From Candidatus Thorarchaeota archaeon MP11T_1 (GTDB lineage: Archaea; Asgardarchaeota; Thorarchaeia; Thorarchaeales; Thorarchaeaceae), in assembly GCA_002825515.1 (NCBI GenBank), contig PJET01000035.1:1-8307 (forward strand): a DNA stretch of 8,307 bases, written 5' to 3'. A model generated the notes under the pieces. The model saw nothing but the letters and a program-made list of their open reading frames with translations. It had not been told where the DNA came from and searched no databases. How positions within the stretch are numbered: the first letter of the stretch is position 1; each line of letters begins with the position of its first letter. Below, piece after piece: positions 2,358-8,281 of the stretch. A program made the position numbers and the translations under genes.

Positions 2358-2606
2358 TTACTGATTTGTTTGGAGTTTTTCCTGGATGGCTAGCAAGAGC
2401 GTGTCTGGCACGGGCTCGCCATCTAATCTTTCAATTGAAAATGGATAAACAGAAATATGGTATTCGTCTCTCGGCTCCCCCAGTTCATCCATAGCTTCGT
2501 GTATTTCATTTTTTAATGCTACGAATACACTACTTATAGCATCTTTAATTCTATTGGAATATTTGTACTCGAATTTTCTAATCAAAGAGTTGTAAGGGGA
2601 TGGCAT
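2358..2606 (-). CDS. Small hypothetical protein
   Basis: An 82-residue frame starting at ATG 2606 and overlapping the end of the sugar-nucleotide enzyme gene by 29 bases. The N-terminal half is amphipathic helical (SNRIKDAISSVFVALKNEIH), followed by EYHISVYPFSIERL and a short C-terminal helix. The ribosome site is weak (GAGAAG). No family is recognised. It ends in TAA 22 bases before the hydrolase-like gene, so it belongs to the same run. Confidence 0.55.
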   Translation of the reverse strand: MPSPYNSLIRKFEYKYSNRIKDAISSVFVALKNEIHEAMDELGEPRDEYHISVYPFSIERLDGEPVPDTLLLAIQEKLQTNQ

Positions 2607-3608
2607 AAGGACTTCTCATTCGCCTATCAAAATCAGCGATTGTTGAGATTAGACCCTCCTCCAAAGGAATCCTCGGCTTAAAACCCAAAAGCTTCTGAGC
2701 TTTTGTTATGTCCGGACGACGTTTCTTCGGATCATCAGCTGGCAAAGCCTTGAAGTATATACGTGAACTAGATGGAACTGATCTTGACGCAATGATCTCT
2801 AGTATTTTCTGAGCCAGGTCTAGAATTGTAATCTCACTAGGATTACCAAGATTGACAGGTCCATCTAGCTTAACAACATTTGCCGCCATGAATAACCCAT
2901 CAATCAAGTCATCAACATAGCAAAGAGATCTAGTTTGAAAGCCATCTCCGAAGACTGTAATTGGTTGCCCTTTCAGAGCTTGAACTACGAAGTTACTCAC
3001 AGCTCGTCCATCATCAAAAGCCATGCGCGGACCATACGTATTGAAGATACGCACGATACGAACATCCGCCCCTTTTCGGCTGGCGTCCATGAGCATGGTC
3101 TCGGCGGCGCGTTTCCCCTCATCGTAACAAGCTCTCTCCCCAATTGGATTTACGTTCCCCCAGTACTCCTCTCTTTGGGGATGCATCAAAGGATCACCAT
3201 ACACCTCTGACGTGCTAGCATGGACAATCCGAGGTATACCGTGTCTACCGCTCCATTTACGAGCCCAAAGAAGGATACGATGAACTCCAAAAATGGACGT
3301 TGTTAATGTTTTGTATGGATCTTTTTGATACTGAACTGGAGAAGCAGGGCACGCTAGATTGAAAATAACATCTATATCTGGGGGAATAGAAGATAGACTT
3401 CCATTAGAGCCCCAATCATCTCTGACATCCCTGAGATAGAAATGGAACCTATCTGATTTTCTAGCTTCTATTAGATTGTTTCCCGATCCTGTTGAAAAAT
3501 CATCCAGTGCATGGACCTCATATCCCTCGTTTAGTAAGCGGTCACAGAGGTGAGATCCAATAAACCCAGCTGCGCCGGTAACAAGAGCTTTACTCCTTTA
3601 CTCTTCAT
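2578..3608 (-). CDS. UDP-glucuronate decarboxylase-like NAD-dependent SDR, start disrupted by 8-bp duplication
   Basis: Predicted to convert UDP-glucuronate to UDP-xylose using bound NAD+ (extended short-chain dehydrogenase/reductase family). The frame is open from 3597 to the TAG at 2578-2580. Counting from the AAA at 3591, it shows ALVTGAAGFIGSH (NAD-binding GxxGxxG, residues 6-12), the acidic pair D30-D31, NLACPASPVQY typical of UXS enzymes, HASTSEVYG (S126-T127-S128-E129), YDEGK (Y156/K160, the YxxxK catalytic pair), RIFNTYGPRM, and FGDGFQTRSLCYVDD near the substrate site. Length matches the family. No ATG, GTG or TTG exists in this frame before a GTG at 3204, which would delete the whole NAD-binding half. 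The ATG at 3608 (ATG AAG AGT AAA) is out of frame by exactly one 8-bp repeat unit. The gene is therefore off, phase-variable, or affected by an assembly error. A phage could use such an enzyme to alter host surface or virion sugars. Confidence 0.85.
3588..3603 (-). repeat. Perfect 8-bp tandem repeat (GAGTAAAG x2) at a gene start
   Basis: On the minus strand GAGTAAAG occurs twice back to back (3603-3596 and 3595-3588), and a third copy lies at 3619-3612 across the stop codon of the macrodomain gene. With a single unit, the ATG at 3608 would read MKSKALVTGAAGFIGS, a typical SDR start. With two units the frame is lost and hits a stop about 25 codons later. Such a repeat can gain or lose units by strand slippage. 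Confidence 0.9.
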
Positions 3609-3613
3609 CTGCT

Positions 3614-4123
3614 TTACTCGTCATCTGGCAAATCGTACACGGTGACGTTAATGCTACGCTTCAGAAGTTCTTGTTCAATTAGAGGTTCCACTTTGTCCCA
3701 GGTTCCTCCAGCAAGGCCGCAACCAATTCGAGGCATATGAACAGCGGCATTGTACTCACTGATTTCATCGCCAGCCTTGGATAGGCATTGTTGCAGCGCC
3801 TTGTAGTCGATAGGTATTGGATTCTCCTTATTGACGACGCCGTTTTGTGCCACCATGTTAATAACAACCAAATCACTGAGAATCTGGATGCTTTGGATAT
3901 CGCCTAGATTGAGCTTCCCGTAGCGTTCACGCCACCATTTGCGATACTCAGTTTCGACCTTTGGCCAACGTCGAGCTAGAGCACCGGAGAATCCAGCACC
4001 GTACTTGCCCTCGTTGTTGACGATTTGGAGAATATAACGGAGGTTACTTCCTTGAGGAATGGTCGCATCACCCTTCGCAAAACGAAGAAGTCCTTTGGGA
4101 TTATGATCACTTGGCTTTCTCAT
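3614..4123 (-). CDS. Macrodomain protein, ALC1/TARG1/DarG-like class (ADP-ribose binding or hydrolysis)
   Basis: A 169-residue protein consisting of one macrodomain, the fold that binds ADP-ribose and in many members removes it from protein, nucleic acid or phosphate. Motifs in order: KGDAT (17-21), IVNNEGKYGAGFSG (34-47, the ribose-binding loop), LVVINMVAQNGV (85-96), and MPRIGCGLAGGTW (130-142) followed by VEPLIEQEL and NVTVYDLP. The last block closely resembles the ALC1-like class (TARG1, DarG, yeast Poa1p). Where TARG1 has a catalytic lysine and aspartate, this protein seems to have Q93 and A138, so the mechanism may differ. The start at 4123 is chosen over the frame's longer form (4153) because GAAGGA lies 6 bases before it and its ATG follows the IF-1 stop by one base. 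Possible roles are reversing host ADP-ribosylation or clearing ADP-ribose-1''-phosphate from RNA repair. Confidence 0.85.
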   Translation of the reverse strand: MRKPSDHNPKGLLRFAKGDATIPQGSNLRYILQIVNNEGKYGAGFSGALARRWPKVETEYRKWWRERYGKLNLGDIQSIQILSDLVVINMVAQNGVVNKENPIPIDYKALQQCLSKAGDEISEYNAAVHMPRIGCGLAGGTWDKVEPLIEQELLKRSINVTVYDLPDDE

Positions 4124-4124
4124 G

Positions 4125-4328
4125 TTATTTCCTTCGGTAAATGATTCGACCAAGTTCTACATCAACCTTATCGCCCTCTACAACTTTAATATTGTTAGTT
4201 CTCATCTTACCAGATAGTTGGCAGAGGATAGTTTTCTCCTCACCTTCTATATCCAGAAGTACGGAGAAGAAGCCATTACCTCGGGCAGCTTGTACTATCC
4301 CATTAATTTTGGGTTTGTCAGATGGCAC
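4125..4328 (-). CDS. infA: Translation initiation factor IF-1 homologue
   Basis: A 67-residue OB-fold protein. In bacteria IF-1 binds the A site of the 30S subunit and helps IF-2 and IF-3 select the initiator tRNA. Visible IF-1 marks are the NGIVQ first strand (9-13), ARGNGFFSVLLD (15-26), the signature QLSGKMRTNNIKV (37-49), GDKVDVEL (52-59) and the final RIIYRRK. Compared with the 72-residue E. coli protein, the TPYDLSK loop before the last strand is missing (VEL runs directly into GRI). It starts with GTG at 4328, with GGAG 8 bases upstream; no ATG exists near. The first 34 bases overlap the end of the upstream gene, and the stop is one base from the macrodomain ATG, so all three are translationally linked. 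Phage-borne IF-1 has been reported in huge phages and would favour phage mRNA or replace a host factor. Confidence 0.88.
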   Translation of the reverse strand: MPSDKPKINGIVQAARGNGFFSVLLDIEGEEKTILCQLSGKMRTNNIKVVEGDKVDVELGRIIYRRK

Positions 4329-5478: not shown

Positions 5479-6068
5479 CCAACACTCCAATCGGGATTAT
5501 CCATATCAGAGGCAGCGCGCACAAATGCGACTGCTACTTTTCTTGGATCTATACCCGCTTCTTCGCAAAGATCTATCATCTTATCTTCATCGGCGGGTAA
5601 ACCCAACTCGATGAGCTTGCGCCTGACATGTCGATCAATGGGGAAACTGGGAACTTTGAGTGCATCCCGGCAGAATAGTGAGATAACTTTAGTAGAACTT
5701 GAGCCTACTAGACTCAACATGATTCTGCGGCCGATTGGCGGTTTACGAGCGCAGAATATATCAAAATCAGATTTCTTCCAGGCGCTATTTGGATCGGTGA
5801 GGTTGTACACCGCTGTTTTGATGAAGCTTCTCTGCCATTGTAGCGGGTACATCTGGACAATCTCATCTTCTGAAAGAGAGACCAGATCACGTCCATTCAG
5901 AATCTTGAGAGCGCGTCCTTGGATGTTCTTGCGACGATTGAACTTCCATGGACCTGCTCCTATACAAATGACAAAAGCATCCGAGAAACTACGGCCCCGA
6001 AGCCAACCAAATGGCGTTGCTAAGTGCTGATTTTGTTCCCAGAAATCAATGAGAGTTTCGACCTGCAC
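5475..6068 (-). CDS. HhH-GPD-type DNA glycosylase-like protein
   Basis: A 197-residue protein resembling the endonuclease III/OGG superfamily of base-excision enzymes. The key block is IGRRIMLSLVGSSSTKVISLF (112-132), in the place of the helix-hairpin-helix LPGVGRKTA with K127 as candidate catalytic lysine, followed by FPIDRHVRRKLIELGLP (142-158), in which D145 matches the invariant aspartate of VDTHVxR. No four-cysteine Fe-S loop is present at the C-terminus. The N-terminal part is helical, as expected. The start is GTG at 6068 with GGGAG 8 bases upstream, inside the preceding small gene. The stop overlaps the next start (ATGA). A role in repair of damaged or modified phage DNA is plausible; the exact base is unknown. 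The hairpin departs from consensus, so an inactive or divergent relative is possible. Confidence 0.6.
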   Translation of the reverse strand: MQVETLIDFWEQNQHLATPFGWLRGRSFSDAFVICIGAGPWKFNRRKNIQGRALKILNGRDLVSLSEDEIVQMYPLQWQRSFIKTAVYNLTDPNSAWKKSDFDIFCARKPPIGRRIMLSLVGSSSTKVISLFCRDALKVPSFPIDRHVRRKLIELGLPADEDKMIDLCEEAGIDPRKVAVAFVRAASDMDNPDWSVG

Positions 6069-6216
6069 TGCCGCCTCTCCCTTTGTGCGTCAATCTACGC
6101 TGAATAGCTTTTCTCTTCAGCATTTTGGGAGTCTTCATCTTGCGCTTTTCTGCTTTACGAAGCTTGCGAGCAACATGGCGCTTAAGCCTCATAGTTGGTG
6201 ATTTGTTATTTCTCAT
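6046..6216 (-). CDS. Small, extremely basic protein (56 residues)
   Basis: This frame encodes 56 residues, starting at ATG 6216, with AAGGA five bases upstream and the stop of the preceding gene overlapping it (ATGA). It ends in TGA at 6048-6046, inside the glycosylase gene. About 40 percent of residues are K or R (for example RLKRHVARKLRKAEKRKMK at 10-28), with GRGGSAGR near the end. Strong ribosome site, coupling and overlap on both sides support a real gene. Such composition suggests RNA or DNA binding. The central basic helix is reminiscent of ribosomal protein bS21's tail, but the bS21 N-terminal motif is absent, so I do not assign it. Confidence 0.65.
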   Translation of the reverse strand: MRNNKSPTMRLKRHVARKLRKAEKRKMKTPKMLKRKAIQRRLTHKGRGGSAGRNSH

Positions 6217-6446
6217 CTAGTTCCTTTTACTGCATTCTTAGCAACGGAATCCACTAGACCTTGAAGATCAAGGTTTGTGGTCTCGGGAAGCTTGACATCC
6301 TTGAATATCTCTAAAGCATCGTTAGCTACTTTGTGGGCTTCAGATAGTATACCATTGGCTGTTAGATTAAGATTATGCGCTCTGCATAGAGCTGTGTAAG
6401 CGTTATTGAAAGCATGAAACCACACTTGGTATTCCTGGTATGTCAT
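6213..6446 (-). CDS. Small hypothetical protein, 77 residues
   Basis: An all-helical-looking 77-residue protein: QEYQVWFHAFNNAYTALCRAH, then ILSEAHKVANDALEIF, then LDLQGLVDSVAKNAV, three amphipathic segments separated by polar turns. Its ATG overlaps the stop of the preceding gene and its TGA overlaps the start of the following one, so it is translationally coupled on both sides. No family recognised. Confidence 0.65.
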   Translation of the reverse strand: MTYQEYQVWFHAFNNAYTALCRAHNLNLTANGILSEAHKVANDALEIFKDVKLPETTNLDLQGLVDSVAKNAVKGTR

Positions 6447-6706
6447 GATATCGGTAATGTCCTTGGTTTGAAGTCTGGAATGAGACCGGCTTTAACGATT
6501 CTTATAAGAGCCTTACCAAACTTCTCAGAGTTCAAACCTTGGTAGACTTCATCTGCATCTGCTTTTTCGCACCCAATAGATCTGATCGTGAAAGTGTAGA
6601 CTTCTCCATCATTGATGTAGACTTTCCAACCCGAATCATACTTGTTTACTGTACCATCAGGGTTGTGAGATTTGACAAACCTTGCCTTGTATTTGGGACT
6701 TTTCAT
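6443..6706 (-). CDS. Small hypothetical protein, 87 residues
   Basis: An 87-residue protein with a good ribosome site (AAAGGA, 6 bases before ATG 6706) and stop/start overlaps with both neighbours. The first half looks beta (YKARFVKSHN, SGWKVYINDGEVYTFTIRSIG), and the second is helical (ADEVYQGLNSEKFGKALIRIVKAG). No family recognised. Confidence 0.65.
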   Translation of the reverse strand: MKSPKYKARFVKSHNPDGTVNKYDSGWKVYINDGEVYTFTIRSIGCEKADADEVYQGLNSEKFGKALIRIVKAGLIPDFKPRTLPIS

Positions 6707-7008
6707 ACATCGTCCTTTGGTAGAACATTTTCCGCTAATACACCAGCTACCCTGTAGTCAATTCCAGGGTGCTTTACAATGATACCGCCAGAAAGCAAAC
6801 GAGAAGCAACCTCTCTGATATCAGTGAAGCTGGATAGTTCTCTAAACTTCCATTCCTTTAGAAAGGCGAAATGCTGGTCAAGCACTAGTTGTGCTTGTTC
6901 AATCAAATCATTCCACTGCTCGGAGTGATCTTCTCTCATCCATTGACCAAAAGTCTTATCTTCTGGGACGTTTTTACACACCGTGTTCCAGTCACTCAGA
7001 TCGACCAT
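6703..7008 (-). CDS. Small hypothetical protein, 101 residues
   Basis: The start is placed at ATG 7008, which shares its A with the TAA stop of the release factor gene (TAATG) and has AGGAG 7 bases upstream. The longer form from 7029 is less likely. The protein is tryptophan-rich near the N-terminus (DLSDWN, FGQWMREDHSEQWNDL), helical in the middle, and ends in a short beta segment (GGIIVKHPGIDYRVAGVL). It is tightly coupled to the release factor. No family recognised. Confidence 0.65.
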   Translation of the reverse strand: MVDLSDWNTVCKNVPEDKTFGQWMREDHSEQWNDLIEQAQLVLDQHFAFLKEWKFRELSSFTDIREVASRLLSGGIIVKHPGIDYRVAGVLAENVLPKDDV

Positions 7009-7674
7009 TACCATTCTCCTCGCATCCACTTCTTAAGCTTCCAAGTCTTACCAGTGCGATGGTCCTTTACTTGATCATCTTGCAGACGATAAGTACGAAT
7101 CTTATCTCCGCGCATGCCTGAACCCACTTGCTCTTTACGAAGCTTCTCGCGGTCCTCTCGATATGCTTTTGACTTCCGGCCACCAATTTTATCTGCCAGA
7201 ATTTTCAGAGCCATTTCTTTGCTCTGGTGTTGACTTCGCATATCGATTCTTACGCTAGTTCCTGTTGGTTTGTGGACTGCTGTGATACAGCTTTCCGTTC
7301 TGTTTCTATGTTGCCCGCCTGGGCCGGATCCTCGACTAGCTCTTGTCTCGATTTCACTACCATCGAGCACATAAATCTCATCTACTTCAGGATCGAGCAC
7401 AGCAACAGTTACAGTACTGGTGTGCACACGCCCACGTTTTTCAGTGGGAGGGATTCGTTGCCAACGATGGCCACCCGCTTCATCTTTGAAGAGAGCTTTC
7501 GCTCCATTACCTTTGAAGAGTACTGTGAGAATACCGGGCTGACTCTCTAGGAGTTCAGAGTCAAAGTCCCCTCCGATCTCCCGCCTTTACATAGGCTGAC
7601 AGCATATCTTCGCACAGTAACTTCGAATCTTGGCCTCCTTCGGCCGCCCTAATTTCGATTACAACAGATTCCAT
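7008..7674 (-). CDS. Class I peptide chain release factor (RF1-like, no domain 1) made by +1 frameshift
   Basis: Predicted to release finished peptides at stop codons. The gene is in two frames. Frame one runs from ATG 7674 (AGGAG 7 bases upstream) through 37 codons, VVIEIRAAEGGQDSKLL to DRRGL, and meets TGA at 7563-7561. The +1 frame continues from GAC 7562 (DSELLESQPGILTVLFKG) to TAA at 7010-7008. The joined protein has 221 residues: a PCRF-type domain 2, GGHRWQRIPPTEKRGRVHTS with a recognition-like PPT at 75-77 (RF1 has PAT/PVT, RF2 has SPF), the GGQ catalytic motif SGPGGQHRNRT (GGQ 119-121), RSQHQSK, and a C-terminal GDKIRTYRLQDDQVKDHR. Bacterial RF1/RF2 are about 350 residues; domain 1 is absent here. 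Neighbours are tRNA-Pro upstream and a coupled small gene downstream. If the shift were an assembly error the gene would simply be continuous, but the exact recoding motif argues against that. Confidence 0.85.
7560..7575 (-). promoter_or_regulatory. RF2-type programmed +1 frameshift site
   Basis: The mRNA-sense sequence is CGGAGGGGACTTTGAC. It contains the SD-like GGAGG (7574-7570), a 3-base spacer GGA, the slippery CTT (7566-7564), the stop TGA (7563-7561) and a following C. The E. coli prfB site is AGGGGGTATCTTTGAC with the same order and spacing. Slipping one base forward at CTT reads GAC next and joins the two halves of the release factor. Confidence 0.85.
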
Positions 7675-7701
7675 TTTTCTACTCCTAGATGTTGAATCCG
7701 G

Positions 7702-7773
7702 TCGGGGATGCGAGAGTCGAACTCGCCAACGCTAGTTCCCAAAACTAGTCGCCCACCCCGAGCGCTATCCCCG
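7702..7773 (-). tRNA. trnP(ugg): tRNA-Pro (anticodon UGG)
   Basis: This is a 72-base cloverleaf. The acceptor stem is CGGGGAT (7773-7767) with ATCCCCG (7709-7703), fully paired. A short D arm CGCT...GGCG contains one G-U pair. The anticodon stem CTAGT/ACTAG has loop TTTGGGA, so the anticodon is TGG with G37, as in proline tRNAs. The variable region is 5 bases, and the T stem GCGAG/CTCGC has loop TTCGACT. The discriminator is A, and CCA is not encoded (CCG follows), so the tail must be added. It reads proline CCA and, with wobble, other CCN codons. Its 5' part lies inside the HNH coding sequence, and it ends 27 bases before the release factor ATG, so it is probably cut from a shared transcript. 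Confidence 0.92.
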
Positions 7774-8281
7774 ATTTCAGTTTTAGTTCTCCTGCATGAA
7801 CTGCGGCGTGACAACATCTGCACAACAACACACAGTTTTTAAGTTCCTTTTCTATACGCTCCCATGCCCAGCCTCTCGATGATGCAAAATTCGGATCTTT
7901 TTTGGTTGGATCTAAATGGTGAACATCTAAAGCGCACTTAAATCTACTATACCCACATTCAATACACCTACCACCAAGAAATTCTCTCACCCGGTTTTTT
8001 TGCTTTTGACCATATGTCAGCGTGTACTCGTTATGACATTTACCACAGATTGATCTTTTGTTTCCGTAGAATTTTTCTGGACGTGTCTCGCCACATTTGC
8101 ATTTGCATCCTAGAGCTTTCTTCGCATCACGGGGAAGTTTTCCACCCGGACCTCTGAACAGTTTAACTCCCTGTTTCTTAATCCAATACCTAATAGTAGA
8201 TGGGCTTTTACCTGTTATCGTAGATATTTCCCGAACCGTATGTTTCTCGCTAGCTAGCGTTCTCAACAATTCTGTATCCAT
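7745..8281 (-). CDS. HNH endonuclease with N-terminal helix-turn-helix, overlapping tRNA-Pro
   Basis: A 178-residue protein. Residues 4-38 form a helix-turn-helix (VREISTITGKSPSTIRYWIKKQG) that would recognise DNA. Next is a zinc-ribbon-like segment with cysteines at 61, 63, 79 and 82 (CKCG...CGKC). The nuclease part is CIECG (C106, C109), LDVHHLDP (D119, H121, H122), N149 and LCRCCHAAVH (C154, C157, H158/H162): zinc-binding cysteines around a DHH...N...H active site. This is the build of free-standing phage homing endonucleases, which nick or cut DNA to spread their own gene. The ATG at 8281 has no strong ribosome site. The last eight residues and the TAG stop (7747-7745) are encoded by the 5' half of the tRNA gene, down to its anticodon stem. 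Confidence 0.88.
   Translation of the reverse strand: MDTELLRTLASEKHTVREISTITGKSPSTIRYWIKKQGVKLFRGPGGKLPRDAKKALGCKCKCGETRPEKFYGNKRSICGKCHNEYTLTYGQKQKNRVREFLGGRCIECGYSRFKCALDVHHLDPTKKDPNFASSRGWAWERIEKELKNCVLLCRCCHAAVHAGELKLKSGIALGVGD

Follow-up and report, generated by a model that had tools for sequence, protein, structure and literature searches.

How is a release-factor gene translated when its reading frame closes at a TGA after 37 codons and its conserved protein sequence continues directly afterwards in the +1 frame, and is such an interruption an accident of one contig or a device that phages keep? The question is raised by a gene in the window, by which we mean the whole stretch of DNA analysed here, 8,307 nucleotides of contig PJET01000035.1 from an assembly named Candidatus Thorarchaeota archaeon MP11T_1. 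An earlier note on this DNA had read the gene as a phage-type release factor lacking domain 1 and carrying an RF2-style +1 frameshift site within domain 2.

The interrupted gene and its surroundings

The gene begins with ATG at 7674-7672 of the minus strand, its frame 0 is closed by TGA at 7563-7561, within GGAGGGGACTTTGAC, and the +1 frame terminates with TAA at 7010-7008 (Table 1). With CTTT taken as a single step, translation yields one release factor of 221 residues, in which the PCRF profile covers residues 3-90 (profile positions 101-194 of 194, that is, its second half) and the RF-1 domain residues 103-206. The note's description thus held in three respects: a 37-codon frame ending in TGA with a +1 continuation, the absence of domain 1 (only the second half of PCRF and the RF-1 domain are present) and a site in domain 2 after residue 37. 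The full layout of the site is GGAGG-GGA-CTT-TGA-C.

Table 1. Features of the release-factor locus, in window coordinates.
Feature	Position	Strand	Detail	Basis
Phage RF1-type release factor gene, without domain 1	7008..7674	-		translation, PF03462, PF00472, profiles, AF2 model
Ribosome-binding site AGGAG	7682..7686	-	7 bases 5' of ATG	sequence
Frame-0 ORF, 37 codons + TGA	7561..7674	-	N-terminal part of domain 2	
Internal SD-like putative stimulator GGAGGGG	7568..7574	-	GGAGG ends 3 bases before CTT	
Slip site CTT-TGA-C	7560..7566	-	P-site CTT, gate stop UGA, then C	
+1-frame part	7008..7562	-	remaining domain 2 (PPT) and domain 3 (GGQ)	
tRNA-Pro (TGG)	7700..7773	-	immediately upstream of the release-factor gene	

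Long tRNA arrays are the setting of many relatives of the gene. In the window, the tRNA-Pro gene is overlapped by the 3' end of an HNH endonuclease ORF (7745-8281, minus strand); the same strand also encodes a macro-domain protein (3614-4129) and an NAD-dependent epimerase/GDP-mannose dehydratase-like protein (2578-3597).

An RF1-type factor

Class I release factors are recognized by motifs named PxT, SPF and GGQ, and RF1 reads UAG and UAA but not UGA. The window product has PPT as its stop-reading motif, with Q72 before it, and GGQ as its hydrolysis motif. It scored 195 and 189 bits with RF1 profiles, 127 with RF2, 78 with PrfH and 26 with ArfB, each below the profile's own cut-off; those of the prfA equivalogs, which describe full-length proteins with domain 1, stand at 400 and 423 bits, so that the product fails both. 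When a profile of the related proteins was compared with known structures, RF1 chains came out on top (240 bits), with RF2 (153) below them and PrfH at 83. The shifted product is predicted to take the RF1 core fold: its AF2 model (mean pLDDT 90.3, pTM 0.75) finds its best match in ribosome-bound Thermus RF1 (TM 0.91-0.92), with at most 0.86 against RF2 and 0.70, the lowest of the three, against PrfH. The frameshift site falls in this model at the turn between a helix (15-34) and a strand (38-45).

In a tree of the family, the phage genes formed one clade (support 100), with seven bacterial RF1 rows as its neighbours and the two RF2 rows lying elsewhere. This tree has 136 rows, was built by a quick method with the shift residue masked, and has low support on 55 of its 133 inner branches; it predates the last 15 genes found, and the outgroup row L361, which is cut by a TGA, was dropped from it. 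We therefore rejected an RF2-type identity (PPT motif, RF2 profile at 127 against 195 bits for RF1, tree position), and likewise membership of PrfH (77.8 bits against a cut-off of 166.65). As its ancestry lies on the RF1 side, the factor did not receive its frameshift site along with an RF2 gene. The epithet 'RF2-style' accordingly fits the parts and spacing of the site, which are those of prfB, and does not fit the factor (PPT; 195 against 127 bits); the suggestion that the device was acquired independently stands in that it did not come with an RF2 gene, and the motif may have arisen anew or been copied.

The RF1-type reading motif is widespread in the family. PxT is present in 46 of 62 genes with a frameshift at UGA, 13 of 18 with a frameshift at UAG or UAA, and 57 of 59 with an in-frame UGA, and the Q before it occurs in all parsed genes but one. 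Some members depart from this. In 34 of 78 parsed frameshift genes, Gln stands in place of the His in the RF1 motif GRxHTS (GRVHTS/GRVQTS), irrespective of the gate codon, as we call the stop at the site. In the 485-kb phage L005 (2428-3082), the PxT loop is deleted (HRVQRTSNGRIHSS), yet the frameshift site is kept, and the TAG-gated gene L209 (about 6001-6664) has SPL-D as its codon-reading motif, which resembles PxT less than it does the RF2 motif. A 164-residue protein of an uncultured phage, annotated PrfB (BFVD A0A6J5T9T2) and 49% identical over 156 columns, is possibly a family member called from an internal start.

Conservation of the frameshift site

The first relative found, the GC-rich L001 (50% identical), has GGAGATGTCTTTGAC at the same codon, as L005, from an uncultured phage, has GGAGGGGTCTTTGACC, and in an alignment with 12 relatives of 41-54% protein identity residues are conserved on either side of the frame break. 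From 467 sources, outgroup records included, 144 distinct genes were drawn by script. They came from pattern searches of IMG/VR, two site-blind profile searches, one of genome contigs, and plasmid and phage records; the pattern searches favour frameshift genes by design, only the two profile searches being blind to the site. As parsed by the script, 79 of the 144 genes, the window's included, have a +1 break at codon 26 after an EGG motif, 59 have no frame break and one or two in-frame UGA in the same region, four are uninterrupted, one (L307) has a break at codon 36 and is left out of the 79, and one (L289), which nearly duplicates L283 but bears an indel, was likewise excluded. Several loci stand outside these counts and were read by eye: L151, L153 and L161 are frameshift genes, L146, L147 and L405 have two in-frame UGA, L004, L006 and L007 have in-frame UGA, and L465 and L002 are uninterrupted. 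By name, L402, L403, L410, L412 and L420 are the contigs of L146, L147, L151, L153 and L161.

The stop at the break is TGA in 61, TAG in 16 and TAA in two of the 79 frameshift genes, and it is preceded by CTT in all 79, a codon used for only 120 of the 753 downstream leucines of the same genes. An SD-like stretch of four or more bases lies just 5' of the site in 70 of the 79, leaving nine without one, compared with 12 of 44 in-frame-UGA genes and none of four uninterrupted genes; the mean anti-SD pairing of the three groups is -8.0, -2.8 and -0.2 kcal/mol, respectively (codon, SD-like and pairing-energy counts were made on 129 genes). The stretch persists while the residues that it encodes vary (RRGL, LERL, QEGL), and such constancy of CTT and SD-like bases through residue change bears the marks of selection on nucleotides. 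C follows the stop in 54 of the 79 genes; the other 25 have another base there, unlike prfB. Thus the conservation of CTT and a stop at the same codon was found in 79 distinct genes and that of the SD-like stretch in 70, and the seven-base CTTTGAC of the earlier note was conserved in part, its CTT being constant, its TGA giving way to TAG (16) or TAA (2), and its final C being kept in 54. Judged from these comparisons, the frame break is programmed recoding, and the window site exemplifies a widespread pattern.

Relatives with in-frame UGA, and evolution of the gate

Among the 59 genes without a frame break, the in-frame UGA is at codon 25 in 49 and elsewhere in ten. Codon 25 is a Trp position in the seven complete bacterial RF1 rows compared, and the genes with UGA at this codon form one clade of 34 on the tree (support 99). 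All in-frame stops between EGG and GGHR of the unshifted genes are UGA, with no UAG or UAA among them.

The frequency of interruption is best judged from the site-blind searches. Among the best 80 of 288 relatives in the first of these, 75 loci were parsed into 69 distinct genes, of which 65 are interrupted (26 by frameshift, 39 by in-frame UGA) and four are neither; the five unparsed loci, read by eye, added three frameshift and two in-frame-UGA genes. The second search gave, for the best 80 of 351 (73 loci parsed, 69 distinct genes, contigs largely those of the first), 21 frameshift, 44 in-frame UGA and four neither. Both sets favour the window's kin, since only the best 80 of 288 and of 351 were kept. 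Six relatives in all (L148, L154, L163, L191, L465 and L002) are uninterrupted, so the gate is not indispensable.

The gate has also changed in identity and in place. The 16 TAG rows on the tree require 14 changes between TGA and TAG, at least six of them forced by well-supported (starred) branches, which indicates that the gate codon has been swapped repeatedly. L149 reads in frame and keeps a UGA at the frameshift codon, and it groups with frameshift genes, beside a TAG-gated row (support 91, branch not starred). In L307, a separate CTTTGAC site follows GGGGG at codon 36; at this second position an in-frame UGA occupies the identical codon in L150 and L164 and precedes it by one or two codons in L188 and L196.

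Members with in-frame UGA also occur on plasmids of Rhizobium, Bosea and Variovorax. On the plasmid of Variovorax sp. SRS16 (L128, 2974-3678), the gene is divided by its in-frame TGA and annotated as a pair of proteins, and three other Variovorax plasmids with a tblastn match carry the same pair of annotations; the coding strand of the Bosea plasmid copy (L130) has no annotation. Other features were seen in the phage loci. tRNA genes called as Pyl with a CTA anticodon are present in L176 (10130-10206), L177 (9842-9917) and, twice, in the 735-kb phage of L007, and these tRNAs of in-frame-UGA phages are possible readers of amber codons. tmRNA-like genes lie near the release factor in L162 (8009-8348), L176 (6651-7164) and L177 (7185-7641).

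Use of UGA elsewhere in the genomes

The in-frame-UGA relatives could be accounted for by a genome-wide reassignment of UGA (code 4), of which the window gene would then be a broken member. Phages using code 4 and having both an RF1 and a UGA-reading tRNA are known, according to the accessible part of one report (PMC10746230). The question was approached by counting internal TGAs in AT-rich loci, coding density under three codes being too blunt, especially in GC-rich DNA. In 45 AT-rich in-frame-UGA loci (four loci with GC above 0.48 were left out), 39 of 302 long code-4 ORFs had an internal TGA, up to four of seven in L169; many of these may be spurious, given that several hold 4-13 TGAs and that tRNA arrays make up many of the loci. 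On the other side, in five 20-kb samples from three huge in-frame-UGA phages, none of 72 long ORFs had a TGA at least 60 codons from its ends, and Trp is encoded by TGG in these phages. The 455 tRNAs of 60 loci (five with odd loops and no clear anticodon) included none with a UCA anticodon, nor did the tRNA regions of five huge phages, in which a few tRNAs lacked a clear anticodon; for two of these phages the regions cover 36 and 59 tRNAs, against 43 and 62 by Infernal. Each of the five has a single RF-1 domain match. Moreover, family members sit on the Rhizobium, Bosea and Variovorax plasmids, and TGA ends 48% of neighbouring ORFs at UGA-frameshift loci and 33% at in-frame-UGA loci. The same test gave eight of 21 ORFs with an internal TGA in the GC-rich 485-kb phage, a setting in which it carries no information, and two of nine long code-4 ORFs in the window.

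The huge-phage samples and the tRNAs thus contradict a reassigned code for the phages sampled, and we regard reassignment as a very improbable explanation. As the replicons tested otherwise use UGA as a stop, the UGA in the release-factor gene is special.

A proposed mechanism and its alternatives

The frame break and its conservation can be read directly in the DNA, as can the stimulator and the in-frame UGA of the sister groups. That the ribosome slips, that it does so when termination is slow, and what purpose this serves are inferred from prfB. By this analogy, a ribosome would reach CUU-UGA with the internal SD-like stretch pairing behind it. Where UGA is read fast, a peptide of 37 residues would be released; where it is read slowly, the CUU tRNA would slip by one base and the full factor would be made. 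Slow termination would thus most likely be the condition under which the gate yields the factor. Where a relative's gate is UAG or UAA, the gate codon is one that RF1 reads, and the factor could close its own gate by direct self-regulation. As RF1 does not read UGA, such a gate on an RF1-type factor would give no direct feedback, and the gating of the window gene, whose product is RF1-type, would not be simple RF2-style self-regulation. In the UGA-gated genes, that of the window among them, the loop would be indirect: the gate would signal that RF2 is scarce, and the newly made RF1-type factor would take over UAA (and UAG), freeing RF2 for UGA until the gate closes. We consider it quite probable that the window factor is made only by way of a programmed +1 frameshift and that its gene, through this conditional synthesis, senses termination capacity and couples this sensing to a termination factor.

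The gate codon showed no link with the recognition motif (PxT 46/62 against 13/18, Fisher p = 1.0), and a motif class that is alike in both gate groups makes a general sensor of termination more plausible than a gate tuned to the factor's own codon. Nor was there a clear difference in the stop usage of neighbouring ORFs, of which TGA ends 48% at UGA-gated and 44% at UAG-gated loci; at the single TAA-gated locus measured it ends one of nine. When neighbouring genes were clustered, only the clusters formed by the release-factor gene and by its antisense ORFs had more than ten frameshift members among the 30 largest listed.

Other explanations would dispense with the sensor or with the shift. Obligate recoding might merely fix the factor at a low level, the stop sensing nothing. 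That gate codon type is uncorrelated with the recognition motif, that neighbours use stops alike and that some members are ungated would all suit this account; however, an A-site stop has been kept across deep divergence in two different recoding forms, and a weak start site would presumably be a simpler route to a low level, so we hold the account to be rather improbable. It is unlikely, though deserving of some weight, that the factor mainly rescues ribosomes whose termination is blocked or damaged, in the manner of PrfH, with the gate detecting the failure. Such a role would be compatible with the sensor reading, and it is favoured by the absence of domain 1, as in PrfH, by the matches of PrfH structures in sequence (83 bits) and fold (TM 0.70), and by a gate that may be any of the three stop codons. 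It is disfavoured by the PrfH score (78 bits against a cut-off of 166.65) and by the RF1 stop-reading residues, which are largely kept in all three groups of genes (PxT and the preceding Q, as counted above).

The remaining two explanations concern the reality of the shift, and we give them hardly any credence. A one-base difference in a single read set can mimic a frame break, and the near copy L289 does carry an extra indel relative to L283, so a sequencing error or a pseudogene might be suspected. The same break, codon and motif recur, however, in 79 distinct genes from many separate metagenomes, with protein conserved on both sides, and since CTT and a stop are kept at the same codon in all of them an error is not a reasonable explanation; the conserved site contradicts it, and contradicts a pseudogene as well. 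Alternatively, the downstream part might be translated alone from an internal start with the shift unused, the window indeed holding a 139-residue ORF that begins with GTG. A product from this GTG would be without the PPT codon-reading loop, and invariant residues of domain 2 stand between the shift and the GTG.

Comparison with known systems

In the bacterial prfB site as in that of the window, CTT occupies the P site and a stop the A site, an SD-like stretch lies three bases upstream and C often follows the stop, and the prfB frameshift mechanism has the same parts in the portion of a 2016 review accessible to us (PMC5009743). The two differ in place and in logic. The prfB site lies near codon 26 in domain 1 of an RF2 gene, whereas that of the window is at codons 37-38, in domain 2 of a gene that lacks domain 1. 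In prfB, the gate codon is one that the encoded factor itself reads (UGA, read by RF2), in contrast to the window's UGA gate on an RF1-type factor, and the phage family, unlike prfB, has sister groups with in-frame UGA. According to the accessible text of a 2025 survey, the prfB gate is nearly always TGA, TAG serving in none of 8,164 prfB genomes, and conserved frameshift elements are absent from prfA (PMC12421855); the phage family uses TGA, TAG or TAA. The 2016 review knew of no RF2 gene whose frame runs on past an early in-frame UGA, nor of an RF1 gene with UAG in that role, as far as the part accessible to us goes (PMC5009743).

Among viruses, the same portion of that review names a release factor of a giant virus in whose gene readthrough and frameshifting both occur (PMC5009743). 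The class I release factor of Mimivirus and Megavirus is likewise viral and, in the available part of its description, recoded at internal stops by frameshift and readthrough (PMC3521657). It is, however, a factor of eukaryote/archaea type from a different protein family, comes from viruses of amoebae and has both events in one gene. PrfH, like the window factor, is a class I factor without domain 1; the window factor lies far under its cut-off.

The loci L002-L007 presumably derive from the study of huge phages that lists release factors. Release factors 1 and 2 are named there among the translation genes of huge phages and, in the part of the study available, without mention of a frame break or in-frame stop, the word 'frameshift' occurring 0 times in the main text (PMC7162821). 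In the open-access literature searched, we found no report of a recoded phage RF1.

Implications

Programmed frameshifting has been described for bacterial RF2, and none is known for RF1; phages appear to carry RF1-type genes of both recoded kinds, among which the gate codon has been swapped in nature. We think it likely that this phage RF1-type clade is built around a conserved premature stop whose identity, position and mode of passage all change; it would then constitute a phage-encoded termination thermostat and the first case of recoding control in RF1-type factors. Genes gated in this way are likely to be miscalled as truncated ORFs, as with the Variovorax plasmid copy annotated as two proteins, and the gate variants offer many natural tests of what the gate senses. 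Since most relatives found keep a stop that would be passed by slipping or readthrough, these sequences suggest that phages use the gate stop to sense the quality of termination in the infected cell, and that termination capacity may limit infection by large phages.
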